Shown in pieces: positions 11,852 to 26,512 of a stretch of 35,767 nt of DNA. The DNA is from an uncultured Chitinophagaceae bacterium. Its GTDB lineage: Bacteria > Bacteroidota > Bacteroidia > Chitinophagales > Chitinophagaceae. The translations under genes and the position numbers were made by a program. Location: positions 1 to 35,767 of the forward strand of contig CAITVK010000119.1 in assembly GCA_903895845.1 (NCBI GenBank), in the 5' to 3' direction. Position 1 is the stretch's first letter; each line of letters starts with the position of its first letter. The notes beneath the pieces are model-generated. The model saw nothing but the letters and a program-made list of their open reading frames with translations, did no database searches and was not told the origin of the DNA.

Positions 11852-12103
11852 TTCTTTTGGTGGGTAAATCACTTCTTTTGGTGAGTAAAAGAATTCTTTT
11901 GGTGAGTAAATCAACTCTTTTACTCAGTAAATCAGTTCTTTTGGTGAGCAAAAGAACTCTTTCGGTGAGTAAAAGAATTCTTTTAGTGAGTAAATCAACT
12001 CTTTTACTCAGTAAATCAGTTCTTTTGGTGAGCAAATCAATTCTTTCGGTGAGCAAATCAATTCTTTTGCTCAGTAAAAGAAGTAATTCAGCCACTAAAA
12101 GAA
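11852..12103. repeat. Array of twelve 21-bp tandem units, dyad-symmetric, type A
   Basis: Twelve head-to-tail units of exactly 21 bp; the last is degenerate. The best unit has the form TTCTTTT-GGTGAGT-AAAAGAA, so the 7-base ends are inverted repeats. Variants carry ACTCAGT in the centre or AAATCAA at the end. Units 2-5 and 6-9 form a higher-order duplication of 84 bp (79 of 84 bases identical). Because 21 is a multiple of three, the array is open in frames on both strands (heptads such as LLVSKRI, LLTKRTD). That is a by-product of the period and not evidence of coding. It fills the divergent gap between the lipoprotein gene and rpsA. Confidence 0.92.
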
Positions 12104-12208
12104 GCCGATTCAACCAAGTTAAGTTGCCTCTTATTAATCAACTATTTCAAATAAAATCTGATTTCTTCTCTCCTCTCTCAAAGTAATCACTAACCAATTT
12201 TTATACTA

Positions 12209-12242
12209 TTGCCAATAATTTCAAACCTGTTCCTTACTTTTG
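12209..12242 (+). promoter_or_regulatory. rpsA promoter
   Basis: TTG (12209-12211), 23 bases, then TACTTTTG (12235-12242), an exact TAnnTTTG match to the Bacteroidota housekeeping -7 element. The rpsA ATG follows 34 bases later. It lies beyond the end of the 21-bp array. Confidence 0.6.
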
Positions 12243-12276
12243 CAGCCCGAATTAAAAAAGCTTCGGATTATTTAAA

Positions 12277-14388
12277 ATGAATTTATTTATTAAACAACTA
12301 AATGCAGATGCCCAGGATAGCGCCGCAACCTCAGAGGTTGAAGCTACCACTGCAACAACAAACGCACCTGTGGAAGAAACCGCAACAGAAGTTGCAGCAG
12401 AAGAAACACCAGTAATTGTTGCCGCCGAAGAAGTAGCAGTAGTTGCTGAAGAAGCAGCACCAGCAGTTGAACCAACTCCTGAAATTCCCGTAATTGCAGA
12501 CGAACCTGTAGTGAAAGTGGTAGAAGAAGTAGCTGCTCCTACATTTGTTACTGAACCAGAAACAGTAGCACCAGTAGTGGCTTATCAGCCAATTGAAGAA
12601 GTAATTGCAACAGCACACGACGATTTTGACTGGAGCGTAGACAAACGTAATGTGAGTTTGTATGCAAAAGAAGAAAAAGTAAAGTACGACAAAGTGTATG
12701 AAGATACATTCGTACAGATTGAAGACGGTCAGATCATGGATGGTTTGGTTGTTGGATTGACTAAAACAGACGTTGTAGTAAACATCGGCTTTAAAAGTGA
12801 TGGTCTGATTTCTTTGAACGAATTCCGCGACAATCAAGGTCTTAAAGTAGGTGACTTGGTTGAAGTAATGGTGGTTGAAAAAGAAGATAAGAATGGTAAC
12901 CTTACCCTTAGCCGTAAAAGCGCTAAGAACTACCGTGCTTGGCAACGTATTGTTGAGCTTAACAAAACCGGAGAAGTTGTGTCTGGTTATGTTACCAGCA
13001 AAACAAAGGGTGGCTTGATTGTGGAAATCTATGGAATGGAAACATTCTTACCTGGTTCTCAGATAGATGTGAAGCCTGTAGCAGATTACGATCAGTTTGT
13101 AGGCAAAACAATGGAATTTAAGGTTGTTAAAATCAATGAAACTATCAAGAATGCTGTTGTATCTCACAAGGCTCTTATCGAAAGCGATATGGAAGCTCAA
13201 CGTGTGAACATCATGAGCAAACTAGAAAAGGGTCAGGTATTGGAAGGTGTTGTTAAAAACCTTACAGACTTTGGTGCCTTTATGGATCTTGGTGGATTGG
13301 ATGGTTTACTTTATATCACAGATATTTCTTGGGGTAGAATTTCTCACCCGAGCGATTTGTTGAAAATAGATCAGAAGGTAAATGTGGTTGTATTAGACTT
13401 TGATGATGATAAGAAACGTATCAGCTTAGGTTTAAAACAATTAACGCCACATCCTTGGGATGTATTGCCAGCGGATCTTGCAGAAGGTTCCGTTGTTCGT
13501 GGTAAAGTAGTGAACATCGAAGATTATGGTGCATTCCTAGAAGTTCAACCTGGTGTTGAAGGTTTGGTACACGTAAGTGAAATCACTTGGGCTAATACAC
13601 CTGTAAACGCTAAGGAATTCTTTAAACTAGGTGATGAACACGATTCTAAGGTTGTTACTCTAGACAAGGATACCCGTAAAATGAGTTTGTCTATCAAACA
13701 GATGACAACGGATCCATGGGATACCATTGAAAACAAATATGCCGTAGATAGCAAGCACCAAGGATTGGTCAAAAACATTACTCCTTATGGTGTATTTGTT
13801 GAGTTAGAGCCAGGAATTGGTGGAATGATTCATATTAGTGATTTAAGCTGGTTAAAGCGTTTGAATCACCCGAGCGATTATGTGAAAGTTGGTCAGCACA
13901 TCGATATCATGATTATGGGTATCGATAAAGACAACCGCAAGCTACAATTGGGTCATAAACAACTAGAAGAAGATCCTTGGAGCACATTGGAAGATACTTT
14001 TGGAGTAGGTACAAAACACGAAGGTACTGTTACACGTAGGGACGATAAGGGTGCTTTAGTTCAATTAGCATATGGTTTGGAGGGATTTGCTCCAGCACGT
14101 CATCTTAATAAGGAAGATGGTAAAGCAGTTGTTGCTGAGGAAACATTAGAGTTTGTGGTAATAGAATTTGATAGAAACGACAAGCGTATTCTTTTGAGTC
14201 ATAGTCGTGTTTGGGAACAAGCGCAAATTGAAGTAAAAGAGTCTGCTAAGAAAGAAGCAAGAGCTGAATCTGAGAAGACGGCGAAAGAAGTGAAAGTTAT
14301 TCAAGCTAAGGTAGAAAAAACTACTTTGGGTGAATTGAGTGCTTTGGCTGATATCCGTGCTAAACTGGAAGAAGGCGAAAAGAAATAG
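12277..14388 (+). CDS. rpsA: 30S ribosomal protein S1 with acidic N-terminal extension
   Basis: Binds mRNA on the small ribosomal subunit and helps start translation; this matters especially in Bacteroidota, which rarely use Shine-Dalgarno pairing. The 703 residues hold six S1 (OB-fold) domains at about 150-214, 232-297, 318-387, 404-474, 491-561 and 578-643, with signature strings such as DGLVVGLTKTDVVVNIGFKS, DFGAFMDLGGLDGLLYITDI and EDYGAFLEVQPGVEGLVHVS. Residues about 12-110 form an Ala/Val/Glu/Thr-rich acidic low-complexity extension before the conserved AHDDFDWSVDKRN. About 60 charged residues form the tail. The first in-frame ATG after the promoter is used; no later ATG precedes domain 1. 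A strong terminator follows. Confidence 0.96.
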   Translation: MNLFIKQLNADAQDSAATSEVEATTATTNAPVEETATEVAAEETPVIVAAEEVAVVAEEAAPAVEPTPEIPVIADEPVVKVVEEVAAPTFVTEPETVAPVVAYQPIEEVIATAHDDFDWSVDKRNVSLYAKEEKVKYDKVYEDTFVQIEDGQIMDGLVVGLTKTDVVVNIGFKSDGLISLNEFRDNQGLKVGDLVEVMVVEKEDKNGNLTLSRKSAKNYRAWQRIVELNKTGEVVSGYVTSKTKGGLIVEIYGMETFLPGSQIDVKPVADYDQFVGKTMEFKVVKINETIKNAVVSHKALIESDMEAQRVNIMSKLEKGQVLEGVVKNLTDFGAFMDLGGLDGLLYITDISWGRISHPSDLLKIDQKVNVVVLDFDDDKKRISLGLKQLTPHPWDVLPADLAEGSVVRGKVVNIEDYGAFLEVQPGVEGLVHVSEITWANTPVNAKEFFKLGDEHDSKVVTLDKDTRKMSLSIKQMTTDPWDTIENKYAVDSKHQGLVKNITPYGVFVELEPGIGGMIHISDLSWLKRLNHPSDYVKVGQHIDIMIMGIDKDNRKLQLGHKQLEEDPWSTLEDTFGVGTKHEGTVTRRDDKGALVQLAYGLEGFAPARHLNKEDGKAVVAEETLEFVVIEFDRNDKRILLSHSRVWEQAQIEVKESAKKEARAESEKTAKEVKVIQAKVEKTTLGELSALADIRAKLEEGEKK

Positions 14389-14407
14389 TATTTCATTCTG
14401 TTCTATA

Positions 14408-14443
14408 AAAGAAGCCATCTTGATTTGTCAAGATGGCTTCTTT
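14408..14443 (+). terminator. Rho-independent terminator of rpsA
   Basis: A perfect 16-bp stem, AAAGAAGCCATCTTGA (14408-14423) and TCAAGATGGCTTCTTT (14428-14443), with a TTTG loop, 20 bases after the rpsA stop. Confidence 0.88.
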
Positions 14444-14535
14444 GCTTTCGGCAAATCCTTTAAAGGAACCGGAATGACACTATTGCTTTTTTTGACAATT
14501 GTGTATATTGTAAAAATTTTCTTTTTATTATGTTA

Positions 14536-14808
14536 CTAATACCCATATGTTGGTACTAGCGTTAAAGCAAGTTGTAAAGAAGCGTTATTGCTTAGTTGAA
14601 ATTCTAAAATTGGGCGTTCAATGTATTTAAATCCAATTGTTTTGTTTTTTTGTGCAGCGTGTGTGGGATAAAAACAGTCTTGTGGGTTAAGCAATGGAAA
14701 TCTGTGGGTAAATTCAATTGTTAATTTCGATAAATGAAGCAGGATAGTGCGGGATGGATAGAAAGAGTAGTCGAATAGATTTGCTTTATAATCAATAAAA
14801 ACATTCAT
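14536..14808 (-). CDS. Possible small or remnant gene of unknown function
   Basis: A 90-codon frame; the frame stays open a further 14 codons upstream of the ATG. The peptide has a protein-like composition (SKLTIEFTHRFPLLNPQD, KNKTIGFKYIERPILEFQL) rich in alternating hydrophobic residues, as in a beta-rich C-terminus. It matches nothing I recognise, has no clear promoter, and faces rpsA convergently. It may be the tail of a lost gene. It is the only candidate in the otherwise empty stretch 14444-15236. Confidence 0.28.
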   Translation of the reverse strand: MNVFIDYKANLFDYSFYPSRTILLHLSKLTIEFTHRFPLLNPQDCFYPTHAAQKNKTIGFKYIERPILEFQLSNNASLQLALTLVPTYGY

Positions 14809-15236
14809 TATCAGTTCACTAATGCTTGTCGATTTAGTAATTCGAAAATGTCTTTATAACACCGTGTTAGTAGGTTTCGAAAATAATAGTTACCGATATA
14901 TGAGGGCTTCGAAAAGAGATTTGTGAAAAGTTATGACTTAAATGTTAAAAAAAGCAAATTCTTCTTGAAATATTGTTCTTAACTATTGTAGAAATGAATA
15001 ATTATCCTTTACTTGCGGTCAAACCAATATGCAGGATAATTTATCTGAATAGTTGAGTTAAATATTTATCGGATTCACTGCATTTGGTTATTTAAGATCT
15101 ATTTTATCGTTATATCAAACTATAACAAGTATTTTAGGTTTGATTTGGATTTAGTTAAACAATAGGTTAAATCAGCAGTTTTTTTAATTTAATAATAAAT
15201 TTTTATTAAATAGGATGTTTTTTTCGAACTAGAATA
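14809..15236. other. AT-rich gap before the gliding operon, no gene seen
   Basis: Some 430 bp, very AT-rich, with stops in all frames and no tRNA, hairpin terminator or repeat that I could recognise. Its length and position make it the likely leader or regulatory region of the gld-exb-tonB run. Confidence 0.5.
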
Positions 15237-15244
15237 TATATTTG
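15237..15244 (+). promoter_or_regulatory. -7 promoter element of gldK
   Basis: TATATTTG matches TAnnTTTG exactly, 20 bases before the gldK ATG, implying a very short leader. No good -33 element is visible; the region upstream is a T-run with TTTTTTCG. Confidence 0.5.
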
Positions 15245-15264
15245 CCAAATAGTAATTTCATTTT

Positions 15265-16539
15265 ATGATTAAAAATTTTGTGTTTTACGTTTTCGCTGCT
15301 CTTCTCGTCGTAGGGTTAGGTAGTTGCAAAAAAGGCAAATCCAAAAGTGGTGTCATTGACGATGGTCAGGTTCACGGGATTTCTCCAAATTCAAAGCCTA
15401 GTATGTCTATGCCGTTGGGTATGGTCTATGTTCCTCCTGGGAATTTTCACATGGGGCCTAGCGATGAAGACATCAATTACACTTTCACATCTAGAAACAG
15501 AGAAGTTTCTATCCCTGGTTTTTGGATGGATGCTACTGAGCTTACTAATAATAAGTACAGAGAATTTGTTTATTGGGTAAGGGATTCCACAGTAGCTGTA
15601 ATGCTTGGTGCCCCTTATTATGATACAATTGTGCATTGGAAGCAATTGAAGACAGTTAAACTTGATGACGCTAAATTCAAAGATCAACTTTCAAGTGCAG
15701 GTTATTTTATAAAGGTTGATGCTCAAGGTACAAAACCTTTCTTCAATCCTGAGAAGTTGATATATGCTTACACTGAACCTGATTTTCAAGAACTAACCAA
15801 AGCAGAGAATAGAGAGGCTTTCAAAACGAATCCATTGCCTTTTTTCAAAAAGCGTAAAGTAGCGGCCTACCCAGACACAACAGTCTGGATGAGAGACTTC
15901 TCTTATTCTTACAATGAACCAATGACAAAGAGATACTTTGCTCACCCTTCATTTGGAAATTATCCGGTAGTTGGTGTAAATTGGAAGCAAGCGCAAGCAT
16001 TTTGTAATTGGAGAACAAAAAAATTAAACAGTTATTTGGAATCAAAGAAAATGGCTGTTGAGAGTGATTTCAGATTACCAAGTGAAGCAGAGTGGGAATA
16101 TGCTGCTAGAGGTGGAAGAAGTAGTTCCATGTATCCTTGGGGTAACTACTATCTCAGGAACAAAAAGGGTTGTTTACTTGCAAACTTTAAGCCTGGTAGA
16201 GGTAACTACGCAGAGGATGGCGGTTTCTACACAGTTCGTGTTGATGCTTACTGGCCTAATGGATATGGTCTATACAACATGGCGGGTAATGTGGCAGAAT
16301 GGACTAATTCTTATTTTAATGAAGGAGCTTATAACATAGTTCATGACATGAGTCCTGATTTGAGGTATGACGCAAAAGATTCTGACCCTCCACGAATGAA
16401 AAGAAAAGTTGTTAGAGGTGGTAGTTGGAAAGATGTTGGTTATTACCTACAAACAAGTACAAGAAATTATGAATATCAAGACACTTCTAAATCTTACATA
16501 GGTTTCAGATGCGTAATTGATTTGGTACCTAGACGTTAA
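15265..16539 (+). CDS. gldK: Gliding motility/type IX secretion lipoprotein GldK
   Basis: A 424-residue outer-membrane lipoprotein that forms the periplasmic ring of the type IX secretion system with GldN. The signal peptide ends in the lipobox LGSC (Cys21). From about residue 48 it has the formylglycine-generating-enzyme (sulfatase-modifying factor) fold: GMVYVPPGNFHMGPSDED, FWMDATELTNNKYREFV, PVVGVNWKQAQAFCNWR, DFRLPSEAEWEYAARGG, YPWG, GLYNMAGNVAEWTNSYF, VVRGGSWKD and YIGFRCV. In GldK this fold is structural and not known to modify sulfatases. It is the first gene of an eight-gene plus-strand run, with gldL starting 65 bases later. The order gldK-L-M-N settles the identity against ordinary SUMF1 proteins. 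Confidence 0.95.
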   Translation: MIKNFVFYVFAALLVVGLGSCKKGKSKSGVIDDGQVHGISPNSKPSMSMPLGMVYVPPGNFHMGPSDEDINYTFTSRNREVSIPGFWMDATELTNNKYREFVYWVRDSTVAVMLGAPYYDTIVHWKQLKTVKLDDAKFKDQLSSAGYFIKVDAQGTKPFFNPEKLIYAYTEPDFQELTKAENREAFKTNPLPFFKKRKVAAYPDTTVWMRDFSYSYNEPMTKRYFAHPSFGNYPVVGVNWKQAQAFCNWRTKKLNSYLESKKMAVESDFRLPSEAEWEYAARGGRSSSMYPWGNYYLRNKKGCLLANFKPGRGNYAEDGGFYTVRVDAYWPNGYGLYNMAGNVAEWTNSYFNEGAYNIVHDMSPDLRYDAKDSDPPRMKRKVVRGGSWKDVGYYLQTSTRNYEYQDTSKSYIGFRCVIDLVPRR

Positions 16540-16604
16540 TATTTTAAATTTTCAATACTTCACAAACATTAAACATTTCACTTAACAATTAAAAAAGAAA
16601 CAAC

Positions 16605-17357
16605 ATGTCAGCAGGTTTAACAAAAGGTCAAAACAGATTACTAAACATCTTTGTGTGTTTTGGTGCATCAATTGTTATCATTGGAGCTTTATTTAAAATT
16701 CAACACTATCCAGGGGCAAGCATATTCCTTCCTATTGGGTTGGGTACAGAAGCGCTGATATTTGTTGTTTATGGGTTATTGCCTCCTCCAGATGCAGGAC
16801 ACGTTGAAGCTCCGTTAGAAAAAGTTCAAGGAAACACTGCTTTGAAAACAATGGAAAAAATGTTGGCAGAAGCAGACATCACTCCTACAAGTTTAGCAAA
16901 ATTGGGAGATAATTTCAAGAAATTGGGATCTACTGTTTCTAATATTGGAGAAATAAGTGATGTTGTTAAGTCAACTTCTGATTTTAGTTCAAAGACTAAA
17001 TTGGCTGGTGAGTCTTTTGCAGCAATTACAGGTGCTGTTAACCAAGCTACTGCTTCTTTCTCTTCTTTGAGTGGTGCTGCTGAGTCTACTAAACAATTCC
17101 ATGGACAAGTTCAAAACTTGACTAAGAACCTTGCTTCTATCAATACAATATATGAGATGGAATTGCAAGAAAGTAATAACCACTTAAAAGCAATCAACCA
17201 GTTTTATGGCAAGCTTTCTCAAGTTGCTACAACTATGGAAGGTACAGCTGTAGATGCTTTAAAGGCAAAAGAACAAATTGGTACTTTAGCCAATAACTTA
17301 AGTAAACTAAATCAAGTTTACGGAAATATGTTAACTGCAATGCAAGGAAGGGCGTAA
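16605..17357 (+). CDS. gldL: Gliding motility/T9SS motor protein GldL
   Basis: The ring subunit of the proton-driven GldL-GldM motor in the inner membrane that powers T9SS secretion and gliding. It has 250 residues and two helices near the N-terminus: about 12-31 (LLNIFVCFGASIVIIGALFK) and about 38-58. The second contains GLGTEALIF with Glu49, the membrane carboxylate of the family thought to take part in proton coupling. Lys31, His34 and Tyr35 follow the first helix in FKIQHYPGA, a conserved block. The remainder is a cytoplasmic helical domain rich in Ser, Ala and Asn. gldM begins 57 bases downstream. Confidence 0.95.
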   Translation: MSAGLTKGQNRLLNIFVCFGASIVIIGALFKIQHYPGASIFLPIGLGTEALIFVVYGLLPPPDAGHVEAPLEKVQGNTALKTMEKMLAEADITPTSLAKLGDNFKKLGSTVSNIGEISDVVKSTSDFSSKTKLAGESFAAITGAVNQATASFSSLSGAAESTKQFHGQVQNLTKNLASINTIYEMELQESNNHLKAINQFYGKLSQVATTMEGTAVDALKAKEQIGTLANNLSKLNQVYGNMLTAMQGRA

Positions 17358-17414
17358 TGATAGTTGCTAACTATTGTTATAATCATTTTTTAATATTTAA
17401 ATAATTAAATTAGT

Positions 17415-18965
17415 ATGTCATTACCTAAAGAGCCCCGGCAGAAGATGATTAACGTGATGTATTTAGTGTTAACGGCTTTGTTAGCTCTGAATGTGTCTGT
17501 TGAAATCTTGAATGCCTTTAAGACAGTTGATCGTAGTTTGAATAATTCTAATACTGCAATTGATGAGAAAGATAATACATTGTTTGCTTCTTTCAAGGAG
17601 ATGCTGAGCAAAAATGAAACTAAAGATTCTGCAGCTATTTGGTTTCCTAAAGCAAAAAATGCTAAAGACTATTCTGATGATGCAATCAACTACATAGAGG
17701 ACTTAAAAAAGCAATTGATAGCTGCTTCAGATCCTGAGCCCGCTAAAGACGGAAAAGAAGCTACCTACAATTATCAAAATACGGACGCCTCAACACATTT
17801 GCTAGTTGAAGGACCAGTAGGTGAGAAAAATGGTGATGATTTGCTTAAGAAGCTGACTGATTACAAGGATAAGATGTTGGGAATAGATCCAGAGGTGGCC
17901 TCTTTGCAGTTGCCATTGGATCTATCAGTTCCCCCTTCTTTGAACGAAAAGGGAGCTAAGCAAATGCCATGGGCTTACACCTATTTTCACATGACTCCAA
18001 CTGTGGCTGCTGTTACAATATTGGATAAGTTCGAAAATGATATTAAGAACAGTGAATCTCAAGTTGTTGAATTCTGTCATAAAAAAATTGGTGCTGTTAA
18101 GATTGTGTACGATAAATTCCAAGCTATAGCAAGTCAAAGTTCAGAATATCTAATGCCTGGTCAAGAGTTGACAATAACTGGTGGTGTTGGTGCTTTCAGT
18201 AGCGCTGCTCAACCTACTGTATCTGTTGATGGCTCTTCAGTTCCATTAGGACCAGACGGAACAGCTTTATACAAAACAACTGTTGGAGGTCCTGGATCTT
18301 ACACCAAGAAAGTAACTATAACTTTCAAAAAGCCAAATGGTGAAATCGCAACCCTTGATAAGGACATCAAATACACTGTTGGTTCACCAACTGGCGCAAG
18401 TGTTAGTGCTGACGCGACGAAAATTTTCTATATTGGTCTTAAAAATCCGATTAGTGTTTCTGGTGGTACTAAGGGAGACGAAGCTACTGAAATTACTGTT
18501 GAAAATGGTAACAAGGAAAAAACTGGTCCTGGAAAGTATGATATTACAGTTAGTGGTGGAACAGAGTCTACAATTAATGTAATTGTGGATGGAAAAACAA
18601 CCCCTTTCAAATTCAGGGTTAAGCCAATTCCAGATCCTGTGGCAATGGTTGGCCGTAGCAAGGGAGGTAAACTTTCTGCAAATGAGTTCAAATCTCAACA
18701 AGGTCTAAGGGCTGATTTGGAAAACTTCATTTTTGAAGGTGTAAAGTATAACATTACTAGTTATACGCTTTATGCTACTGGTAAAGGATTTACTGAAAAT
18801 CCTGGAATTGCGCAAAATAATGGAGCTGCATTCACACCAGAAGCAAGAAGAATTATTGACAGGTGTGTAAATGGAACTACTGTTACATTCGATGACATTA
18901 AAGCTGTTGGTCCTGATGGAAGGACTAGAAGTTTGCCTTTGATTGGTTTTAATTTAACAAACTAA
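17415..18965 (+). CDS. gldM: Gliding motility/T9SS motor protein GldM
   Basis: A 516-residue protein that crosses the inner membrane once and reaches over the periplasm to the GldKN ring. The N-terminus MSLPKEPRQKMINVMYLVLT carries the conserved Arg8 directly before the single transmembrane helix (about 12-34). This is the residue described as pairing with the GldL glutamate in the motor. A long helical segment follows (about 40-220), then several beta-rich domains (about 225-516) with repeated Gly/Thr-Val strand patterns and the C-terminal TRSLPLIGFNLTN. The length matches GldM of other Bacteroidota. gldN starts 2 bases after the stop, so the two are translationally tight. Confidence 0.95.
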   Translation: MSLPKEPRQKMINVMYLVLTALLALNVSVEILNAFKTVDRSLNNSNTAIDEKDNTLFASFKEMLSKNETKDSAAIWFPKAKNAKDYSDDAINYIEDLKKQLIAASDPEPAKDGKEATYNYQNTDASTHLLVEGPVGEKNGDDLLKKLTDYKDKMLGIDPEVASLQLPLDLSVPPSLNEKGAKQMPWAYTYFHMTPTVAAVTILDKFENDIKNSESQVVEFCHKKIGAVKIVYDKFQAIASQSSEYLMPGQELTITGGVGAFSSAAQPTVSVDGSSVPLGPDGTALYKTTVGGPGSYTKKVTITFKKPNGEIATLDKDIKYTVGSPTGASVSADATKIFYIGLKNPISVSGGTKGDEATEITVENGNKEKTGPGKYDITVSGGTESTINVIVDGKTTPFKFRVKPIPDPVAMVGRSKGGKLSANEFKSQQGLRADLENFIFEGVKYNITSYTLYATGKGFTENPGIAQNNGAAFTPEARRIIDRCVNGTTVTFDDIKAVGPDGRTRSLPLIGFNLTN

Positions 18966-18967
18966 AT

Positions 18968-20002
18968 ATGAAGAACGTTTCTTTTTTCTTTACTGTACTG
19001 CTAGTTGTTTTACTGAGTAGTGTTTCGAATGCTCAGAGAAAGACAACTAGGAGAACAACTACTAAGAAGCCAAGTACAACGAAGAATTCTACGCCGGCTC
19101 CTGTTTCTCAGCCTGCTCCAGAACAGGCTAGTAATACTAAGCCTGCTGCATCTATTCCGTATGTGCATGTGCTAGCTGCTGGCTCTGGAGGTGGTATTAA
19201 TGATACTGCTAAAGTCTCTTTGCGTAGTGATAATGTTGTAACAAAAAACTTTGTAAAGGATAGAACTCCTCTTGCGTATAAAAATATAAGGGAAGATGAT
19301 GCTGTTTACAAACAGCGTATATGGAGGGAGATAGATTCACGTGAAAAAGTTAATCTTCCTTTCAGATATTCTTTGGTTGAAGATAATGGTAGTCAAAGAT
19401 TTGTTTCTATCTTATTGAGTGCAATCCGTAATGGAGTTACTGCTTTCGATCCTATAGATGACAGATTTACTACTCCTTTGACAACAGAACAAGCGCTTGG
19501 AACTTTGTCATCCGGAAAGCCTGATACTATTCCTGTTCAAGATTTGGATGGTAATATTGTTAAGTATAACATCATGACTAAAGAACCTAGTCTAGACTCT
19601 GTATATAAATTTAAAATAAAAGAGGAAGTTGTTTTTGATAAAGAGACTTCTGTTTTATACACGAGAATTCTTGGAATTGCCCCTGAAATGCCAATAACAT
19701 TATCAGATGGAACTTCATTAGGTCAAATGAGAACCTTGTTTTGGTTGTATTATCCAGATTTGCGTCCAACCTTGGCGAAATATGAAGTTTATAACCCAAA
19801 AAACTTCGGTGCAAGAATGAGTTGGGAAGATTTATTTGAAAGCAGAATGTTCAGTAGTTATATCACTAAATCAACGCTAGATAATCCTTTCGATCAGTCT
19901 CTGAAAGAAAAGTATGGAAAAAACACTTTGTTTGCTCTATTAGAAGGCGATGCTATAAAAGAAAAAATATTTAACTACGAACAAAGTCTGTGGTCATATT
20001 AA
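18968..20002 (+). CDS. gldN: Gliding motility/T9SS protein GldN
   Basis: A 344-residue periplasmic protein that makes the ring complex with GldK. The signal peptide is FFFTVLLVVLLSSVSNAQ. A low-complexity Thr/Lys/Pro/Ala-rich linker (about 24-60) follows, and then the GldN domain: VWREIDSREKVN-like IWREIDSREKVNLPF, SILLSAIRNGVTAFDP, LGIAPEMPITLSDG, LFWLYYPDLRPTLAKYEVYN and SWEDLFESRMFSSYI. The FWLYYPDLR and DLFE.R.FSSYI blocks are characteristic. It follows gldM at 2 bases, and exbB begins 36 bases after it. Confidence 0.94.
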   Translation: MKNVSFFFTVLLVVLLSSVSNAQRKTTRRTTTKKPSTTKNSTPAPVSQPAPEQASNTKPAASIPYVHVLAAGSGGGINDTAKVSLRSDNVVTKNFVKDRTPLAYKNIREDDAVYKQRIWREIDSREKVNLPFRYSLVEDNGSQRFVSILLSAIRNGVTAFDPIDDRFTTPLTTEQALGTLSSGKPDTIPVQDLDGNIVKYNIMTKEPSLDSVYKFKIKEEVVFDKETSVLYTRILGIAPEMPITLSDGTSLGQMRTLFWLYYPDLRPTLAKYEVYNPKNFGARMSWEDLFESRMFSSYITKSTLDNPFDQSLKEKYGKNTLFALLEGDAIKEKIFNYEQSLWSY

Positions 20003-20038
20003 TTTAATTCTAATTTTTTAATTTCTCAAAAAGAATCT

Positions 20039-20902
20039 ATGTCAGACGTTAAGGTTTCTGTTAGTCAAGGAAAGTCGGCAACTGCCACACCAGTTAAAAA
20101 GGGAGGCAATATTATTTCTTCAGTTGCGCCACTTGTTTGTATTATTTTAGGATATTTAATTTGGAGATTTGTTATCGGAAATCCAGATAATTTTTCTAAA
20201 CCAGATACTACTGGTGCTTGGTTTTGGCCTACACATGAAGGTCCAAAGAGTGGGTTTTCAAAAATGTATTTAGGTGGTATCATCGTTCCTATCTTGATTG
20301 GTTGTTTTCTTACAGTTTTGACTTTTGTTATCGAAAGATTATTAACTGTAGTTAAAGCAGCTGGTACTGGTAATATTGCTGAATTTATCAGAAAAGTTCA
20401 ATTTCACTTAGCTAACAAAGAAATAGATAAAGCTATTGCTGAATGTGATAAACAAAAGGGTGCTGTAGGTAATGTTATGAAAGGTGGTCTTCACAAGTAC
20501 AAAGAAATGATCACTAATACTGAATTAACAACTGAACAAAAAGTGTTAAATATTCAAAAAGAAGTCGAAGAAGCTACTGCTTTGGAATTGCCAATGCTTG
20601 AGAAGAATCTTGTATTCCTTTCTACCATTGCTTCTGTAGCTACTTTGTTAGGTTTGTTAGGTACTGTATTAGGTATGATTAGATCGTTCTCAGCACTAGG
20701 AGATAGTGGTGGTGGAGAAGCTGCTCAGAAATTATCACAAGGTATTTCTGAAGCCTTGTATAATACCGCTTTAGGTATCGGTACATCAGCTATCTCAATT
20801 ATTATGTACAATGTATTCACTACAAGAATTGATTCTATCACCTATGGTATAGATGAGTCTGGTTTTACTTTGACACAGAGTTTTGCATCAAACTATAAGT
20901 AA
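20039..20902 (+). CDS. exbB: MotA/TolQ/ExbB proton channel family protein
   Basis: A 287-residue inner-membrane subunit of a proton-driven energiser for TonB. A Lys/Ser/Thr-rich cytoplasmic start is followed by hydrophobic segments at about 27-46 and 78-97, a cytoplasmic stretch with VERLLTV-like VIERLLTVVKAAG, and the family signature LSTIASVATLLGLLGTVLGM with EALYNTALGIGTSAISIIMYN (about 193-275). The additional helix near the N-terminus and the extra loop with FWPTHEGPKSGF are usual in Bacteroidota ExbB. It begins 36 bases after gldN and 14 before the first exbD. Confidence 0.92.
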   Translation: MSDVKVSVSQGKSATATPVKKGGNIISSVAPLVCIILGYLIWRFVIGNPDNFSKPDTTGAWFWPTHEGPKSGFSKMYLGGIIVPILIGCFLTVLTFVIERLLTVVKAAGTGNIAEFIRKVQFHLANKEIDKAIAECDKQKGAVGNVMKGGLHKYKEMITNTELTTEQKVLNIQKEVEEATALELPMLEKNLVFLSTIASVATLLGLLGTVLGMIRSFSALGDSGGGEAAQKLSQGISEALYNTALGIGTSAISIIMYNVFTTRIDSITYGIDESGFTLTQSFASNYK

Positions 20903-20916
20903 TTTAAATAGATTAT

Positions 20917-21567
20917 ATGTCACGTCCTAAGTTACCCCGTAAGAGTACTTCTATTGACATGACAGCTATGTGCGATGTGGCTTTTCTGTTGTTGAGTTTC
21001 TTCATATTAACAACAAAATTTAAGCCTTCTGAAGCTATAACTGTTGTTACACCAAGTTCTGTTGCTTCAAAGGTTGCTCCCGATAAGGATATTGTATTGA
21101 TTACAATTGATAAAAACGGTAAAGTATTCTTGTCAATTGATGATGAGGTAAAAAAGCAGTATATAGCTGGAGCCTTAAATTCTGAGAAGAATTTGAATAT
21201 TGATGTTGCTGCTTTTAAAAAAGCTACTTTCTTTGGAACAAGTTTCTCTCAAATACCTTCTTTTCTGACTATTCCTGAAGCAGATAGAAAAGGAAATCTA
21301 TTGCCTGGTATACCTTGCAAGGACAGTACCCAGAATGAGTTGGTTGATTGGCTCAAGATTGTTAATGATGCATATCAGGGTCAAAAGATGAATTTGTTGC
21401 TTAAAGGAGATAATTTGGCCAAATACCCATCTTTTAAAAATGTTATCTATGCGTTTAAGAAAAATAATTTCTTGAAATTCCAGATGGTAACTAACCCTGA
21501 AACAGTGCCAGTTGGTTCTGATTTGTATAACCTTCATCAGAGTAAATCTGATTCTAAGGTTGAATAA
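20917..21567 (+). CDS. exbD: ExbD/TolR family protein, first copy
   Basis: Stator peptide of the ExbB-ExbD motor. It is 216 residues, longer than a typical ExbD (about 140-180). It has one transmembrane helix with the proton-carrying aspartate: SIDMTAMCDVAFLLLSFFIL (Asp20 in the helix). The periplasmic domain has the strand pattern VLITIDKNGKVFLSIDDEVK and an insertion of about 40 residues (FGTSFSQIPSFLTIPEADRK...) not seen in the second copy, before the closing NFLKFQMVTNPE. It lies 14 bases after exbB and 31 before the second exbD. Confidence 0.9.
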   Translation: MSRPKLPRKSTSIDMTAMCDVAFLLLSFFILTTKFKPSEAITVVTPSSVASKVAPDKDIVLITIDKNGKVFLSIDDEVKKQYIAGALNSEKNLNIDVAAFKKATFFGTSFSQIPSFLTIPEADRKGNLLPGIPCKDSTQNELVDWLKIVNDAYQGQKMNLLLKGDNLAKYPSFKNVIYAFKKNNFLKFQMVTNPETVPVGSDLYNLHQSKSDSKVE

Positions 21568-21598
21568 TTTAGTTAATCTAGTTTAAAATATATTTATT

Positions 21599-22144
21599 AT
21601 GGCAGAATTAGATACCTCGGGTGGTGGCCACAAAAAGGGTCCTGGTGTAAAGAAAAGTAAGAAGCTATCAACTAGAATCGACTTGACTCCGATGGTTGAC
21701 CTTGGCTTCCTGTTAATTACCTTCTTTATCTTTACCACAACAATGAGTCAGCCAACTGCCTTTAAGTTGAATTTGCCTAAAGAAGCTGATGACCATAAGG
21801 ATGATACAAAAATTAAAAATTCTGGAGCTTTCACTATACTTTTAGGAAAGGACAATAATGTTTTCTACTATGAAGGTATTCTAGATCCTACTGGAAAGAA
21901 CTTCAAGAGTTCTAATTTTAAAGACATCAGGAATGCGATAATTGACAAAAAACGTCACACTGAGGATAAAGATTTCTTTGTGGTAATTAAGCCTAATGAC
22001 GAAAGTAACTATAAAAACGTGATTGACATTCTGGATGAAATGGCCATAAATGTTGTTAAACGTTATGCTTTGGTTGACATTTCTGAAGGAGAAAATCAAT
22101 TGGTATTGGCTACTGAAAAAGCAGGTACACCGGCAAGTAATTAG
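21599..22144 (+). CDS. exbD: ExbD/TolR family protein, second copy
   Basis: A 181-residue partner of ExbB. The cytoplasmic Gly/Lys-rich start (STRIDLTPMVD) leads into the single helix LGFLLITFFIFTTTM, in which the MVDLGF aspartate (Asp36) is the conserved proton carrier. The periplasmic domain has TILLGKDNNVFYYEG and the closing KNVIDILDEMAINVVKRYAL. Only about a quarter of positions agree with the first ExbD by eye, so this is an old duplication and not a recent one. Bacteroidota often encode two ExbD proteins per ExbB. Confidence 0.92.
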   Translation: MAELDTSGGGHKKGPGVKKSKKLSTRIDLTPMVDLGFLLITFFIFTTTMSQPTAFKLNLPKEADDHKDDTKIKNSGAFTILLGKDNNVFYYEGILDPTGKNFKSSNFKDIRNAIIDKKRHTEDKDFFVVIKPNDESNYKNVIDILDEMAINVVKRYALVDISEGENQLVLATEKAGTPASN

Positions 22145-22180
22145 ACGAATAGTTTAAATTTAAAACATTATCTTAAACTA

Positions 22181-23011
22181 ATGGAAGTAAATAAAATATT
22201 ATCCGCAGATATACTGGACATAATTTTTGATGGTAAAAACAAAAGTTATGGTGCCTATGATTTGCGTAAAACTTACAATAAAAGAATTACTTACGCTTTA
22301 GTTGGAACTATTTCAATTTGCATTTTTATTTTTCTTGTCATTTTTCTAGCAAATAATTTTCATTCTGAAAAGAAAGCGGAGATTATTGTACAAGATGTGA
22401 ATCTAGAAGATTTGAAAAAAGACGAGAAGAAAAATGAACCACCACCACCACCACCACCACCAAAGCAAGAGCCTCCTAAGGTTGAGATAACTAAGTTTAC
22501 TCCGCCAAAAATTGTTAAGGATGAAGAAGTAAAAGAGCAACCTCCCGAACAAGAAAAGTTGGAGGATACAAAAATCGGTACAACCAATCAGGAAGGTGCA
22601 AAGGATGATGGAATGGTTGCACCAGTTGTTGAAAGTAAAGGTACTGGTGTAGTTGAAGCTCCAAAACAGGATGAAGATTACGATAAAGTATTTACTTCCG
22701 TACAAATTGAAGCTGAATTTCCTGGTGGGCCAGCTGCTTGGTCTAAATATCTTTCCAGAAACTTAAATAGTTCATTGCCTGCTGAGAATGGTGCACCCGA
22801 AGGAAAATATACTGTTGTTGTTTCTTTTTTGGTAGATAAAAATGGTAACATTAGTCAGGTTACTGCTGAAAATGACCCACACTATGGAACAGCCGATGAA
22901 GCAGTGAGAGTTATTAGAAAAGGGCCACCATGGAAGCCTGCTGTGCAAAATGGTCACAATGTTGCTTACAGGGCAAGACAAGCGATTACCTTCGTTGTCG
23001 CACCTGAATAA
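22181..23011 (+). CDS. tonB: Energy transducer TonB
   Basis: A 276-residue protein that couples the ExbBD motor to TonB-dependent outer-membrane transporters. It has a short cytoplasmic start with YGAYDLRKTYNKR, one transmembrane helix (about 34-55, YALVGTISICIFIFLVIFLA), a Pro/Lys/Glu-rich periplasmic spanning region with a run of eight prolines at about 86-94, and a C-terminal TonB domain beginning EAEFPGGPAAWSKYLSRNL (about 182 onward) with GKYTVVVSFLVDKNGNISQV and GPPWKPAVQNGHNVAYR. It closes the exb run, and a hairpin terminator follows 15 bases after the stop. Confidence 0.95.
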   Translation: MEVNKILSADILDIIFDGKNKSYGAYDLRKTYNKRITYALVGTISICIFIFLVIFLANNFHSEKKAEIIVQDVNLEDLKKDEKKNEPPPPPPPPKQEPPKVEITKFTPPKIVKDEEVKEQPPEQEKLEDTKIGTTNQEGAKDDGMVAPVVESKGTGVVEAPKQDEDYDKVFTSVQIEAEFPGGPAAWSKYLSRNLNSSLPAENGAPEGKYTVVVSFLVDKNGNISQVTAENDPHYGTADEAVRVIRKGPPWKPAVQNGHNVAYRARQAITFVVAPE

Positions 23012-23025
23012 AAAGATATTCTTTC

Positions 23026-23050
23026 AAACCTTCCTTTCGGAAGGTTTTTT
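23026..23050 (+). terminator. Terminator at the end of the gld-exb-tonB run
   Basis: A 9-bp stem AAACCTTCC / GGAAGGTTT (23026-23034, 23039-23047) with a TTTC loop and a T-run, 15 bases after the tonB stop. Confidence 0.85.
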
Positions 23051-23080
23051 CTTTTTCACTAGTTTTCCATCTTTAATAAA

Positions 23081-24463
23081 ATGAGTCTGTTTAGAGAAGG
23101 CTATAATGATAGTATTGTTGCATTGGCGACTCCAAAAGGTATTGGTGCCATTGGCGTAATCAGGGTTAGTGGAATTGATGCCTTTGAGATTGTGAATGGA
23201 TTATTTAAGTCGAAGAACCTATTGAAGCAAGCTTCGCATACATTGCATGTTGGACTTTTTAGGAATGGTCAGGATGTTATCGACGAAGTTGTATTGGCAT
23301 TATATAAGAATCCCAATTCGTACACGGGCGAAGATGTAATAGAAATTAATTGCCACGGGTCTGTTTATATTCAAAATAGAATACTAGAAACACTCTTGGA
23401 ACATGGTTGTCGTTTGGCAAAGCCCGGTGAGTTTACACAACGTGCTTTTTTGAATGGCAAGCTGGATTTAACTCAAGCCGAAGCTGTTTCTGAACTGATT
23501 GCCAGCAACACAGAGGCAAGTAAGAACAATGCACTTCGAAATATAAGAGGTGGATTTAAATCTGATTTGAGTCTTTTAAGAGAGAAATTAGTTTACTTCT
23601 CTGCAATGATTGAGTTGGAATTGGATTTTGCTACCGAAGATGTTGAGTTTGCTGATAGAAGCGATTTGAAAAAGGTGGTCAATGAGTTGATGGCTAAAAC
23701 CAATCGGTTGGTAGCTTCATTCAAACTGGGTAACGTTATTAAAAATGGAGTTCAGGTAGCTATTATTGGAAAGCCTAACACTGGAAAGTCTACCCTTCTC
23801 AATTCTTTTCTGAATGAAAACCGGGCTATTGTAAGTGATATTGCCGGGACTACAAGGGATACGATTGAGGAAGTCTTGAATATTGAGGGCATTTTATTCA
23901 GACTGATTGATACCGCGGGGATACGTGTGAGCACAGAAAATAGTATTGAAGATATTGGCATACAGAAAAGCTATGAAAAGATGCGTACTGCCGATTTGGT
24001 GGTCTATCTTTTCGACTTGAATCAATCGTCTGTCGCTGAGTTGGACACGGTTGTATCTGATTTTGAAAAGGAAGGAATTAAATATCTGCTGGTAGGTAAT
24101 AAGGTAGACATCAGTGATAAAGCAAAGCTGACTGGTTTTGACAAGTTTGAGAATTTGATTTGTATCTCTGCCAAAGAAAACTTTAATCTGGAGGATTTAA
24201 AAAAGCAACTGGTTAAGCAAGTAGTAGAAGGAGACATCAATACCGAATCGACAATTGTTACCAATGTGCGCCATTATGATGCTCTAAATCAGTTGTCTAA
24301 AGTGTTAGCTGAGATAGAAACAGGACTTACAGAACAATTATCTGGAGACTTGTTGAGCCTCGATATTAAGAAATGTCTTTATTATCTGGGGTTAATAACA
24401 GGCGAAATAACAAATGAGGAGCAGCTGGATTTAATATTTAGTTCGTTCTGTATCGGTAAATAA
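23081..24463 (+). CDS. mnmE: tRNA modification GTPase MnmE
   Basis: With MnmG it makes the 5-carboxymethylaminomethyl group on wobble uridine 34 of certain tRNAs. The 460 residues hold the N-terminal tetrahydrofolate-binding domain (1-120, GIGAIGVIRVSG and GEFTQRAFLNGKLDL), the helical domain, and the inserted G domain: G1 GKPNTGKST (230-238), G2 AGTTRD (255-260), G3 DTAG (277-280), G4 NKVD (340-343). The C-terminus is the diagnostic FCIGK, whose cysteine is conserved. This is the full length expected. It has its own position after the tonB terminator, so it is probably transcribed separately. Confidence 0.97.
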   Translation: MSLFREGYNDSIVALATPKGIGAIGVIRVSGIDAFEIVNGLFKSKNLLKQASHTLHVGLFRNGQDVIDEVVLALYKNPNSYTGEDVIEINCHGSVYIQNRILETLLEHGCRLAKPGEFTQRAFLNGKLDLTQAEAVSELIASNTEASKNNALRNIRGGFKSDLSLLREKLVYFSAMIELELDFATEDVEFADRSDLKKVVNELMAKTNRLVASFKLGNVIKNGVQVAIIGKPNTGKSTLLNSFLNENRAIVSDIAGTTRDTIEEVLNIEGILFRLIDTAGIRVSTENSIEDIGIQKSYEKMRTADLVVYLFDLNQSSVAELDTVVSDFEKEGIKYLLVGNKVDISDKAKLTGFDKFENLICISAKENFNLEDLKKQLVKQVVEGDINTESTIVTNVRHYDALNQLSKVLAEIETGLTEQLSGDLLSLDIKKCLYYLGLITGEITNEEQLDLIFSSFCIGK

Positions 24464-24624
24464 GTCTTATTTTGGCACTCAAAATTGGTATAATTTAATA
24501 TTTTAGTGCTTCGTTTTGCTGCGTATGGATTCATCAGATAGTCTTCAACAGATAAATTCATTGCCCAATTAGCAAACCGATTAGTTTTTATTTGTTTATT
24601 TAACTTTCAATATTCAACTTTTAT

Positions 24625-25146
24625 ATGCGCAAATTTGGTTTGTATATACTGGCACTGTTGGTAATGGGTGCAGTCACTTCTTTCAAGAAGCCCTTGGATG
24701 ATGATGGTTTGTATCTGATAATCAGTAAAAGTAAATATGAAATCAGGTTGTATGATGCCAATAATAAGTGGAAAGCAACCTACCCTTGTGTGTTTGGAAA
24801 TGATGATCAGGGAGATAAACTAATTCAGGGAGACCGAAAAACGCCCGAGGGAACTTTTCATATCATAGTAAAAAAGGTACATCCAAAATGGGATAAATAT
24901 TTTGGTTTGGACTATCCCACACAAGACGATATTGATAAATTTAATACCAGAAAAGAGCAAGGTATTATTCCAAAGAATGCCAGGATAGGCGATGGCATTG
25001 GCATTCATGGAACTTGGCCGCACCAGGATTTTGTGATAGACACTTATCAAAACTGGACCAATGGCTGCATCTGTACCAAAAATGAATATATGGATGAGTT
25101 GTATAAGATGATTCCCATCGGTACAAAGGTCATTATAGTCAAGTAA
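24625..25146 (+). CDS. L,D-transpeptidase (YkuD) family protein
   Basis: A 173-residue exported enzyme of the YkuD fold, which cross-links peptidoglycan or attaches proteins to it through a catalytic cysteine. A hydrophobic N-terminus (FGLYILALLVMGAVTS) serves as signal or anchor. LIISKSKYEIRLYD begins the domain, DRKTPEGTFHI (70-80) is the usual substrate-side block, and IGIHGT (His128) with WTNGCICTKNEYMDEL (Cys148) form the active site. In the classical motif the residue two after the cysteine is arginine (SxGCxR). Here it is Cys150, as in the divergent TNGCIA-type subgroup. The hairpin beyond the stop is a probable terminator. Confidence 0.88.
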   Translation: MRKFGLYILALLVMGAVTSFKKPLDDDGLYLIISKSKYEIRLYDANNKWKATYPCVFGNDDQGDKLIQGDRKTPEGTFHIIVKKVHPKWDKYFGLDYPTQDDIDKFNTRKEQGIIPKNARIGDGIGIHGTWPHQDFVIDTYQNWTNGCICTKNEYMDELYKMIPIGTKVIIVK

Positions 25147-25154
25147 CAAATCTC

Positions 25155-25275
25155 GCCACAAAGACACTAAGACAAAAAGAAGCACCAAGAGGAAATAAAA
25201 CTGAAAGAGGAAACGAAGTAATTAAACTTTGTTTCCTCTTTTTTGTGCTTCTTATTCTCTTTCAGCCTTTGTGGC
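25155..25275. repeat. Nested palindromic intergenic element with CCACAAAG ends, copy 1
   Basis: GCCACAAAG (25155-25163) and CTTTGTGGC (25267-25275) are perfect inverted ends about 120 bp apart. GAAGCAC and GTGCTTC are nested inside them. At the centre the 13-bp stem GAGGAAACGAAGT / ACTTTGTTTCCTC (25208-25239, one mismatch) is followed by TTTTTT, so it can end transcription of the L,D-transpeptidase gene. A related element stands at 28984-29092. Confidence 0.65.
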
Positions 25276-25281
25276 AAAATC

Positions 25282-25917
25282 CTAGTCCCCTGCCATTTTA
25301 CTTACTGTAGCACTCCAGATGGGGGCATCGGTATCCAACCCCTTGTAGGCAGAGGCGAAAAAATAGGTAACTCCCGGCGTAAAACCAGCGAGGCTGATAC
25401 TAATGCCATTACTATGACGATGAAACCATTTGTTTTTATCTGCCGGCGTAGGGCCCAAAGCAGGATCCCAATAAGCGAATGTTGTTCCGTGAGTAGAAAA
25501 GGTGGTTGGTTTTTTTACGTGCAAGAAAAAAGTTCCAGCAATAGAAGTAGTCTCTACATGAAAGTCCTCTACAATGCCCATCACTTGGTGTTCGGCTTCT
25601 TTTGCCATCGGAAATTTACTACTCAAAGCTTTCACCCTGTCGCCACCGGCTTGGATGTTTACTTCATTTCCCAAATTCCTCAAATCATCCACCAAAACAC
25701 CTTTTGAAGTATTTTTATTGGTAGTATTTGTTTCATTCCCGTGTTTACAAAGGGCCAGATCGGCTTTATACGTTGTATTGGCGGATGCCACAGCTGCCAA
25801 TTCTGTAACCACCGAAAAATTGGTATTGGTGCTTGCACAGCCAATAATTACGGCGTCTGCAATTGGACCAATTTCTGTGTCGGTTGAATCCCCGAAATCA
25901 ATAATAACTTTATTCAT
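25282..25917 (-). CDS. Hypothetical protein with fibronectin-III-like C-terminus
   Basis: A 211-residue protein without a signal peptide. It begins MNKVIIDFGDSTDTEIG. The first two thirds are Ala/Thr/Asn-rich and helical-looking (VTELAAVASANTTYKADLAL, NTTNKNTSKGVLVDDLRNLG). The end, SLAFTPGVTYFFASAYKG-like (LAGFTPGVTYFFASAYKGLD), with TDAPIWSATVSKMAG, has the look of a fibronectin type III strand pair. Proteins of this layout, a helical bundle plus a Fn3-like end, are common and uncharacterised in Chitinophagaceae. The large protein at the right edge of the window and the 3' half of the ispG chimera have a similar flavour, without demonstrable homology. A 21-bp array lies directly upstream. 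Confidence 0.7.
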   Translation of the reverse strand: MNKVIIDFGDSTDTEIGPIADAVIIGCASTNTNFSVVTELAAVASANTTYKADLALCKHGNETNTTNKNTSKGVLVDDLRNLGNEVNIQAGGDRVKALSSKFPMAKEAEHQVMGIVEDFHVETTSIAGTFFLHVKKPTTFSTHGTTFAYWDPALGPTPADKNKWFHRHSNGISISLAGFTPGVTYFFASAYKGLDTDAPIWSATVSKMAGD

Positions 25918-25968
25918 ATTTTCTTTTTTTAATTGTAATTCAAATTTTTTACTTTCTTATGATCTGAC

Positions 25969-26178
25969 GAAAGTCATAACTTATGTAATGGAAGTTGAAA
26001 CTTATGCGACAAAAGTTGGAACTTTTATCACGGAAGTTGTAACTTATGTCACGGAAGTTCTAACTTAAGCTATTAAAGTTTGAACTTTTGTCGCAAAAGC
26101 TTAAGCTTATGCCGTAAAAGTTCCAACTTTTGTGACGGAAGTTGGAACTTATGCAGCATAAGTTGCAACTTAAATGAT
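25969..26178. repeat. Array of ten 21-bp tandem units, dyad-symmetric, type B
   Basis: Ten units of exactly 21 bp. The core is AAAAGTT-NN-AACTTTT followed by a 5-base spacer (ATCAC, GCGAC, GTGAC and similar). Units at 26011-26031 and 26116-26136 have perfect arms. In the unit at 26095-26115 the arms have changed together from AGTT/AACT to AGCT/AGCT, which keeps the dyad. The sequence is unrelated to the array at 11852-12103, but period, symmetry and location between divergent genes are the same. Confidence 0.92.
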
Positions 26179-26202
26179 GGAAGGCATACCAAATACGCCT
26201 TC

Positions 26203-26433: not shown

Positions 26434-26475
26434 AATCATACCTCGAAAGAAAAAGAGGGATTTAAAAAAGAGATT

Positions 26476-26483
26476 TATATTTG
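26476..26483 (+). promoter_or_regulatory. -7 promoter element of the gene at 26513
   Basis: TATATTTG matches TAnnTTTG exactly and ends 29 bases before the ATG. No clear -33 element is seen. Confidence 0.5.
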
Positions 26484-26512
26484 AGCTGTAAATTTTTGGA
26501 AATACATATAAA

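Follow-up and report, generated by a model that had tools for sequence, protein, structure and literature searches.

Repetitive extragenic palindromic (REP) elements and bacterial interspersed mosaic elements (BIMEs) have sequences that are shared across a genome. BrickBuilt, found in Porphyromonas gingivalis and P. gulae, is presented in the accessible part of its description as a miniature inverted-repeat transposable element (MITE) with a 23 bp minisatellite, IS5-like terminal inverted repeats and 19 copies in one genome (PMC4596501). Direct repeats of the heptamer TAACTGA occur in gaps of five Bacteroidetes, often upstream of start codons, according to the available sections of the source (PMC4679880), and for prokaryotic satellites medians of 0–3 per Mb are given in the consulted portion of a survey (PMC6749651). 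Here we describe tandem arrays of 21 bp units, two of which lie in a 35,767 bp stretch of DNA from an uncultured Chitinophagaceae bacterium (contig CAITVK010000119.1 of assembly GCA_903895845.1), hereafter called the window. A preliminary description had taken them for members of a genome-wide class. The firmest result is that arrays of this kind lie on the upstream side of one gene family with a predicted fibronectin type III (Fn3) domain. We tentatively regard them as a class of cis-elements whose architecture is kept while the letters are not, and whose geometry might be read to set the expression of the neighbouring gene.

A genome-wide class of 21 bp arrays

Array 1 (11852..12103, no strand assigned) consists of 12 units of 21 bp with the dyad-symmetric consensus TTCTTTTGGTGAGTAAATCAA. 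Its twelfth unit is weak, with 11 of 21 matches to the consensus, and Tandem Repeats Finder (TRF) called 10.8 copies of period 21 at 11852-12078. Array 2 (25976..26185, no strand assigned) has 10 units of 21 bp, read by eye as NAACTTNTGTCRCRRAAGTTN in the dyad register; TRF returned overlapping rows of period 21, 42 and 63, together spanning 25977-26171. In the best registers, starting at 11852 and 25977, 78 of 110 and 62 of 90 possible Watson–Crick pairs are formed, and column shuffling (300 shuffles) gave dyad P-values of 0.003 and 0.000. Fewer than three 10-mers are common to the two arrays. TRF, unit tables and shuffling thus bore out the preliminary description of two real arrays of period 21, unrelated in sequence, with 10–12 units and inverted arms. 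Clustered regularly interspaced short palindromic repeats have constant repeats with unique spacers of some 25–40 bp between them, whereas here the unit occupies the full 21 bp and there is no separate spacer. A search of the window against Rfam structured RNAs gave no match at gathering level.

To sample the class, arbitrary stretches of the same genome were combined with the window (670,227 bases) and scanned for arrays by averaging similarity at lags of one, two and three periods. This lag scan yielded 51 arrays, 39 of them with period 21, eight with period 14 and one each with periods 22, 24, 36 and 40. TRF reported 102 clusters in the same sample, among them 38 of period 21, 12 of period 42, 21 of period 7 and 10 of period 14. 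Period-21 arrays therefore occur about once per 17 kb, or about 58 times per Mb (39 in 0.67 Mb), and by extrapolation roughly 230 would be present in the 4.01 Mb genome. They contain 7–15 units (7–12 in 92 of 95 arrays, mode 9), the lower limit being set by the scan. Period 21 dominates, and the proposal that the unit differs from locus to locus in a genome-wide class of fixed period was upheld, also by the lack of a universal core (see below). The suggested enrichment in divergent gaps failed: 9 of 35 gaps with arrays were divergent compared with 45 of 282 gaps without (Fisher P = 0.16). Some arrays lie inside apparent operons.

Most repeat periods in the sample are multiples of 7, including the period-7 and period-14 clusters. 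Similarity at lag 7 within the 21 bp arrays was not raised (z = 0.2 in 95 arrays), and an origin of the unit from heptamers was dismissed on this ground.

Arrays lie upstream of an Fn3 gene family

The gene next to array 2 (25282..25917, minus strand) starts about 50 bp from the end of the array and encodes 211 amino acids. The AlphaFold2 model (mean predicted local distance difference test 85.7, predicted template modelling score 0.52) shows an N-terminal helical hairpin and a C-terminal fibronectin-III sandwich. In the PDB, Foldseek ranked FnIII domains and the related domains of cytokine receptors highest (E about 1e-5), and one distant family member matched Pfam fn3 at 7.2e-08. No signal peptide was seen by eye. 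The idea of a small exported or hypothetical protein behind the array was thus not borne out for the open reading frame (ORF) at array 2. None of 17 family members matched an NCBIfam model, and no DNA-binding domain was found by Pfam.

A homologue search with this protein revealed that most relatives with sufficient upstream DNA have an array of their own. In the genus of the window, a period-21 array (score cut 0.42) lay within 500 bp upstream of 42 of 47 Fn3 genes and downstream of 1 of 47; by the same criterion an array was found at 40 of 476 control ORFs (Fisher P = 2e-33 for the upstream counts). The count derives from 48 rows, of which L075 was short of upstream DNA and L025 lacked downstream DNA. 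The upstream misses were L014 (199 bp available), L072, L073, L078 and L081, while L037 (C60a) passed narrowly; no ORF was called in the fragments L048 and L091. The locus G032:C84 belongs to another genus and is counted again, as L229, outside the genus, and orthologues in these counts are not independent. At L029 and L032 (both G004), the contig ends within 4 bp of the match to the Fn3 gene start, as if the assembly broke at arrays.

The association extends beyond the genus. With a score cut of 0.46 and a reach of 900 bp, an array of period 20–22 was located upstream of 35 of 44 Fn3 genes and downstream of none of 40; at a score of 0.42 and within 620 bp, the upstream count was 33 of 41. The 44 do not include L250, which has 89 bp of upstream DNA, L251 and L253, which are domains of large proteins, or the partially matching L280 and L282. 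All 24 arrays of period 20–22 in 214,076 bases of other-genus loci, which are centred on Fn3 genes, were upstream of an Fn3 gene. In these same bases, 23 of 30 Fn3 genes had an array within 900 bp upstream compared with 20 of 136 other ORFs; the latter frequently lie across the Fn3 gene's array and face it from the opposite side. Eleven Fn3 loci outside the genus shared, among ORFs of at least 90 amino acids, only one other neighbour, an ORF common to two of them. Matches to the Fn3 family at E ≤ 1e-8 were obtained in 26 of 195 genomes of the bacterial family; in two of these, G017 and G092, the match is no more than a domain within a large protein. Among 395 genomes sampled from the phylum, seven matched at E ≤ 1e-12; three of these lie outside the family, and one has partial hits only.

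An origin of the Fn3 family in phages, plasmids or defence systems was rejected, as tblastn found nothing in phages or plasmids (one query each) and PADLOC matched 0 of 17 members. PHROGs matches to a major tail protein (6 of 17 members, best 3e-07) and a minor tail protein (3 of 17, best 1.8e-05) may reflect the Ig-like fold.

A second family, of about 310 amino acids with a C-terminal CarboxypepD_reg domain, was preceded by a period-21 array in 10 of 26 cases and followed by one in 0 of 24 (Fisher P = 6e-5 against the control of 40 of 476). This survey covered 27 of 30 loci (L309, L311 and L329 were left out); at L302 the wrong ORF was taken and counted as a miss, and L323 had no upstream DNA. 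The domain had been noticed at the C-terminus of two array-preceded ORFs, L174:459-1388 and L121:1656-2552, and a period-14 array lies upstream of five of the 26 genes of the L174 ORF family.

The dispersed arrays and the Fn3 link differ in their reach. In two further genomes of the window's genus, three intergenic arrays of period 20–22 were found in 78 kb and two in 44 kb, whereas 80 kb from each of three other genera contained no array of any period at the 0.46 cut. G016, from one of these array-poor genera, has a single Fn3 match with a weak array upstream (score 0.44, below the cut). Four Fn3-rich genomes of other genera had only four intergenic arrays of period 20–22 in 383 kb, so that Fn3 copy number shows no simple link to dispersed arrays and was abandoned as their driver. 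Dispersal over the whole genome thus seems characteristic of the window's genus, with the Fn3 link wider and apparently older.

Array sequences are replaced between conserved flanks

At the array-2 locus we compared the genome of the window (G000) with its relatives. Between G000 and G001 the Fn3 gene is 83.2% identical and the block beyond the array 81.1%, but the array only 42.3%, against a mean of 45.5% for 30 random pairs of arrays. The 45 bp between array 2 and the Fn3 gene have also been replaced (40.0%). The array of G004 is closer to that of G000 (63.4%, with 65.4% in the gene), and the arrays of G001 and G010 are 97.9% identical.

Three further gaps were followed. Between murG and murC, six of ten genomes have period-21 arrays of four unit types, one has a period-14 array and two have none; what remains in G001 we read as an array remnant. 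In the thrA–thrB gap, arrays of at least three types were found in five of 11 genomes. Here both arms of the unit have changed: G001 contains TCCGAG seven times and CTCGGA three times, whereas G010 contains TCCAAG eight times, CTTGGA seven times and TCCGAG once. For the proC–dut gap, 12 of 13 loci were run. Arrays are present in G000, G001, G004, G006 and G007, and the units differ among the four readable ones; five others gave a contig edge (G003) or no ORF (four). Judged from these comparisons at murC, thrB, dut and the Fn3 locus, the place of an array is often kept while its units are unrelated. Neither this replacement between conserved flanks nor the one-sided Fn3 link was noticed in the preliminary description, which also missed the recurrence of unit families discussed below.

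Dyad symmetry and helical properties

Symmetry was assessed by column shuffling in 95 distinct arrays outside long ORFs, and in a set of 123 after addition of loci from other genera; neither set is free of orthologues or of arrays that share a unit family. Dyads were significant at P < 0.01 in 54 and at P < 0.05 in 63 of the 95 arrays, and at P < 0.01 in 65 of the 123. Within arrays, conservation is higher in the arms (about 0.70–0.80) than in the centre (0.60–0.62). In the sample of the genome itself, 20 of 39 period-21 arrays and three of eight period-14 arrays had P < 0.05. The view that symmetry is constrained is therefore right in that dyads are usual and wrong if taken as universal, and symmetry, although common, does not clearly separate period-21 arrays from others.

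When the dyads of 32 dyadic unit families were aligned, no common core emerged (at most 0.14 bit at any position). An early suspicion that TGYSRCA is a universal core was discarded on the basis of k-mer counts and these alignments. AA/TT power was raised at 10.5 bp (z = 4.4), and modelled curvature was 0.194 compared with 0.142 in column-shuffled arrays.

Neighbouring features in the window

Array 1 is flanked by divergent genes. On one side, 49 bp away, starts an ORF of 150 amino acids (11351..11803, minus strand) whose N-terminus looks lipoprotein-like by eye and which has no Pfam match; on the other, 174 bp away, starts rpsA for 30S ribosomal protein S1 (12277..14388, plus strand; NCBIfam 7.6e-235). 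A period-24 repeat at 12339-12530 codes for an alanine/glutamate-rich N-terminal extension of this ribosomal protein. Further downstream, the window encodes the type IX secretion protein GldM/PorM at 17415-18965 (NCBIfam 2.9e-82).

Across array 2 from the Fn3 gene, an ORF of 109 amino acids (26203..26532, minus strand) ends beside the array. It has no Pfam match, and related loci conserve its C-terminal part: over the last 39 codons, a comparison of seven loci counted 36, 35 and 68 substitutions at codon positions 1, 2 and 3. Because of this third-position bias, array 2 probably sits between two co-directional ORFs and not in a divergent gap, so that the divergent setting claimed for both arrays is correct for array 1 and probably not for array 2. 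If the 109-amino-acid ORF were not a gene, the gap, reaching up to a plus-strand ORF at 26513, would be divergent. An imperfect inverted repeat, GGAAGGC..GCCTTCC, marks the outer edge of the array (26179..26203, minus strand). Inspection of its stem by eye in seven relatives showed differences on both sides in five and on one side in two. A second hairpin-like inverted repeat, AAGGAAGG..CCTTCCTT (26284..26316, no strand assigned), lies within the ORF. At Fn3 loci of the core subfamily (window 26179-26532, L004, L005, L007, L013, L022 and L025), a conserved block beyond the array combines inverted repeats with a small ORF that shows third-position bias and ends in an HFxHLxLYxPP-like stretch.

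What the arrays may do

Recognition of regulatory DNA normally depends on conserved letters. Among close relatives here, the letters are exchanged, whereas position, period and often symmetry persist. The period, equal to two helical turns, fits an element that is read by its geometry, as do the dyads, the AA/TT power, some excess of modelled curvature and the freedom of sequence; we lean, tentatively, towards such a cis-element. It would consist of about ten head-to-tail units of 21 bp, two helical turns each, in which complementary arms usually flank a variable centre. The reader, probably a DNA-wrapping, DNA-bending or DNA-bridging protein of low specificity, would sense the phasing, bending or symmetry of the helix rather than its text, and this reading would set the expression of the adjoining gene. 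With a step of 21 bp, units could be gained or lost without rotating the face of the promoter. Slippage or unequal exchange may homogenise the units of one array and recombination may swap whole arrays, which together would account for the fast turnover of sequence. These functional roles, expression as well as binding, are deduced from sequence.

With a little more reserve we propose a cis-element that is linked to genes throughout the phylum and has geometry, about ten 21 bp dyads, as its sole definition. It would lack any conserved sequence and be a long-standing functional partner of the Fn3 family, its letters replaced wholesale. As part of the same guarded proposal, the element may be likened to a bacterial counterpart of fast-evolving satellite arrays with fixed unit length. 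Because close relatives differ in these letters, the element would escape motif searches and DNA alignments. A period-21 array also serves as a signature of a Bacteroidota protein family of which 17 members matched no NCBIfam model, and the question arises whether a bacterial cis-element can be readable through helical phasing and symmetry alone.

Several observations weigh against a geometry-read regulatory element. About a third of the arrays (32 of 95) have no dyad (P ≥ 0.05), and the curvature excess is only modest. Arrays occur in gaps of all orientations, convergent ones included, and 37 of 39 arrays in the genome sample do not adjoin an Fn3 gene. Outside the genus, 9 of 44 Fn3 genes lack an array at the cut used. 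Six of the 11 thrA–thrB gaps have none, and neither have the proC–dut gaps of G010 (63 bp) and G009 (831 bp). None of seven relatives in which 1.1 kb or more upstream of rpsA is available (G004, G006, G007, G008, G010, G011 and G012) had an array of period 20–22 there, whereas G002 and G003 stop about 30 bp upstream; array 1 was accordingly rejected as a conserved rpsA element. Finally, eight unit families recur at two or three loci each among the 39 arrays of the sample, and two pairs of arrays look like whole elements with ends.

The last two points belong to the main and serious rival, mobility, according to which the arrays are non-autonomous elements of MITE or REP/BIME type, families of which a transposase copies into one gap after another, any regulatory effect being secondary. 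The alignment of L167 with L175 spans 215 bp (82.8%) and runs about 25 bp past the called array at one end; that of L125 with L178, which lie on opposite strands, spans 335 bp (78%), runs 40 and 146 bp past the called array and shows inverted halves. Because these two pairs are alike beyond the called arrays, we rated mobility up and the geometric cis-element down. BrickBuilt, a MITE with a 23 bp minisatellite in P. gingivalis, sets a precedent as far as the consulted part of its description goes (PMC4596501), and in a distant genome (G473) an IS200-like Y1 transposase gene (L296:4462-5076, Pfam 5.8e-09) lies directly upstream of an Fn3 array. On the other hand, five of the seven pairs compared (150 bp of flank) show no whole-element ends, in a comparison that did not include a systematic search for ends or target duplications. 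An array of period 20–22 was near only 3 of 31 distinct Y1 transposase matches in the genus (31 examined of 42 found, array within 900 bp or in the fetched locus; first ten loci, nine with strong IS200-like matches, then 20 loci with 22 weaker matches). By a rough estimate this is no more than expected from one array per 17 kb, and a link to REP-associated tyrosine transposases (RAYTs) was dismissed. Mobility also fails to predict arrays upstream, and never downstream, of distant Fn3 genes, or a position that is kept while the units are unrelated. We consider it somewhat less likely than the cis-element, to which it comes closest.

A mutational by-product is a good deal less probable. Slippage and strand switching at inverted repeats would perfect palindromic arrays without function, and 21 bp would reflect the geometry of an enzyme. 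Unit numbers do differ among relatives (thrB in G000 and G003; contraction at murC in G001), and both centre variants of the odd palindrome of array 1 are present, as strand switching would yield, but an upstream-only link to one gene family over many genera does not follow from such a process.

Somewhat less probable again is an element acting at the RNA level, with the array transcribed as a run of hairpins in an mRNA leader that affects translation or stability. In 11 of 25 Fn3 loci the array ends 30–74 bp before the start codon (range 30–232 bp over all 25), and an exact TAnnTTTG, the −7 motif of Bacteroidetes, lies between array and start codon in 1 of the 25. Some arrays are located within apparent operons, and arrays fold better than column shuffles (mean z of −2.2 in sense). 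At 53 Fn3 arrays, however, the sense strand folds worse than the antisense strand (−39.2 vs −43.2 kcal/mol, P = 0.004), and at 14 operon arrays sense is not significantly better (−50.0 vs −44.5, P = 0.12). The sense-strand ratio of G–U to A–C was 59:110 at Fn3 arrays, and 77:61 and 86:64 in two other sets, neither significant. RNA hairpins were set aside in view of the weaker sense fold at Fn3 arrays and the lack of a consistent wobble bias.

It is very improbable that the unit families are conventional operator arrays, each bound by a dedicated protein such as the Fn3 product or another: dyads with conserved arms and variable centres do resemble dimer sites, but the Fn3 proteins of G000 and G001 are 84% identical behind unrelated arrays, one unit family serves Fn3 genes (L004, L005) as well as gaps of other genes (L124, L163), Pfam finds no DNA-binding domain in the Fn3 family, and 32 dyadic unit families would demand many proteins.

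Comparison with known repeat systems

A literature search of partial coverage, based on titles and abstract openings, returned no description of such a class of arrays. With prokaryotic satellites (PMC6749651) and Borg repeats (PMC9879509), as presented in the available parts of these sources, the arrays share tandem organisation and, in some cases, a non-coding location, and Borg repeats evolve fast. At about 58 per Mb, period-21 arrays here stand against medians of 0–3 for satellites in the part of the survey consulted, the detectors being different (PMC6749651). A fixed period with private units is a trait of the arrays described here that was not met in those portions of the satellite and Borg descriptions (PMC6749651, PMC9879509). 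TAACTGA repeats are built from one fixed heptamer, whereas the 21 bp arrays have no internal period of 7.

REP elements, and BIMEs or REPINs with their RAYT transposases, resemble the arrays in being short, high-copy intergenic palindromes that sometimes form regular arrays, as far as the consulted parts of the reports go (PMC2817692, PMC3116915). The arrays differ from REP elements and BIMEs in their 32 dyadic unit families without a common core and in their strict 21 bp tandem order, and Y1 genes are not array-rich. BrickBuilt is similar in several respects according to the accessible part of its description (PMC4596501): it belongs to Bacteroidota, consists of intergenic tandem repeats of about two helical turns with predicted stem-loops, and lies near genes. 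It has terminal inverted repeats, as stated in that part. Of seven pairs compared here (150 bp of flank), two are alike throughout the array and past it, one of them with inverted halves, and five are not. BrickBuilt has a single 23 bp unit and, in the part of its description available, no reported link to a single gene family (PMC4596501), whereas the arrays described here have period 21 in 39 of 51 cases, belong to many unit families and are linked to the Fn3 genes.

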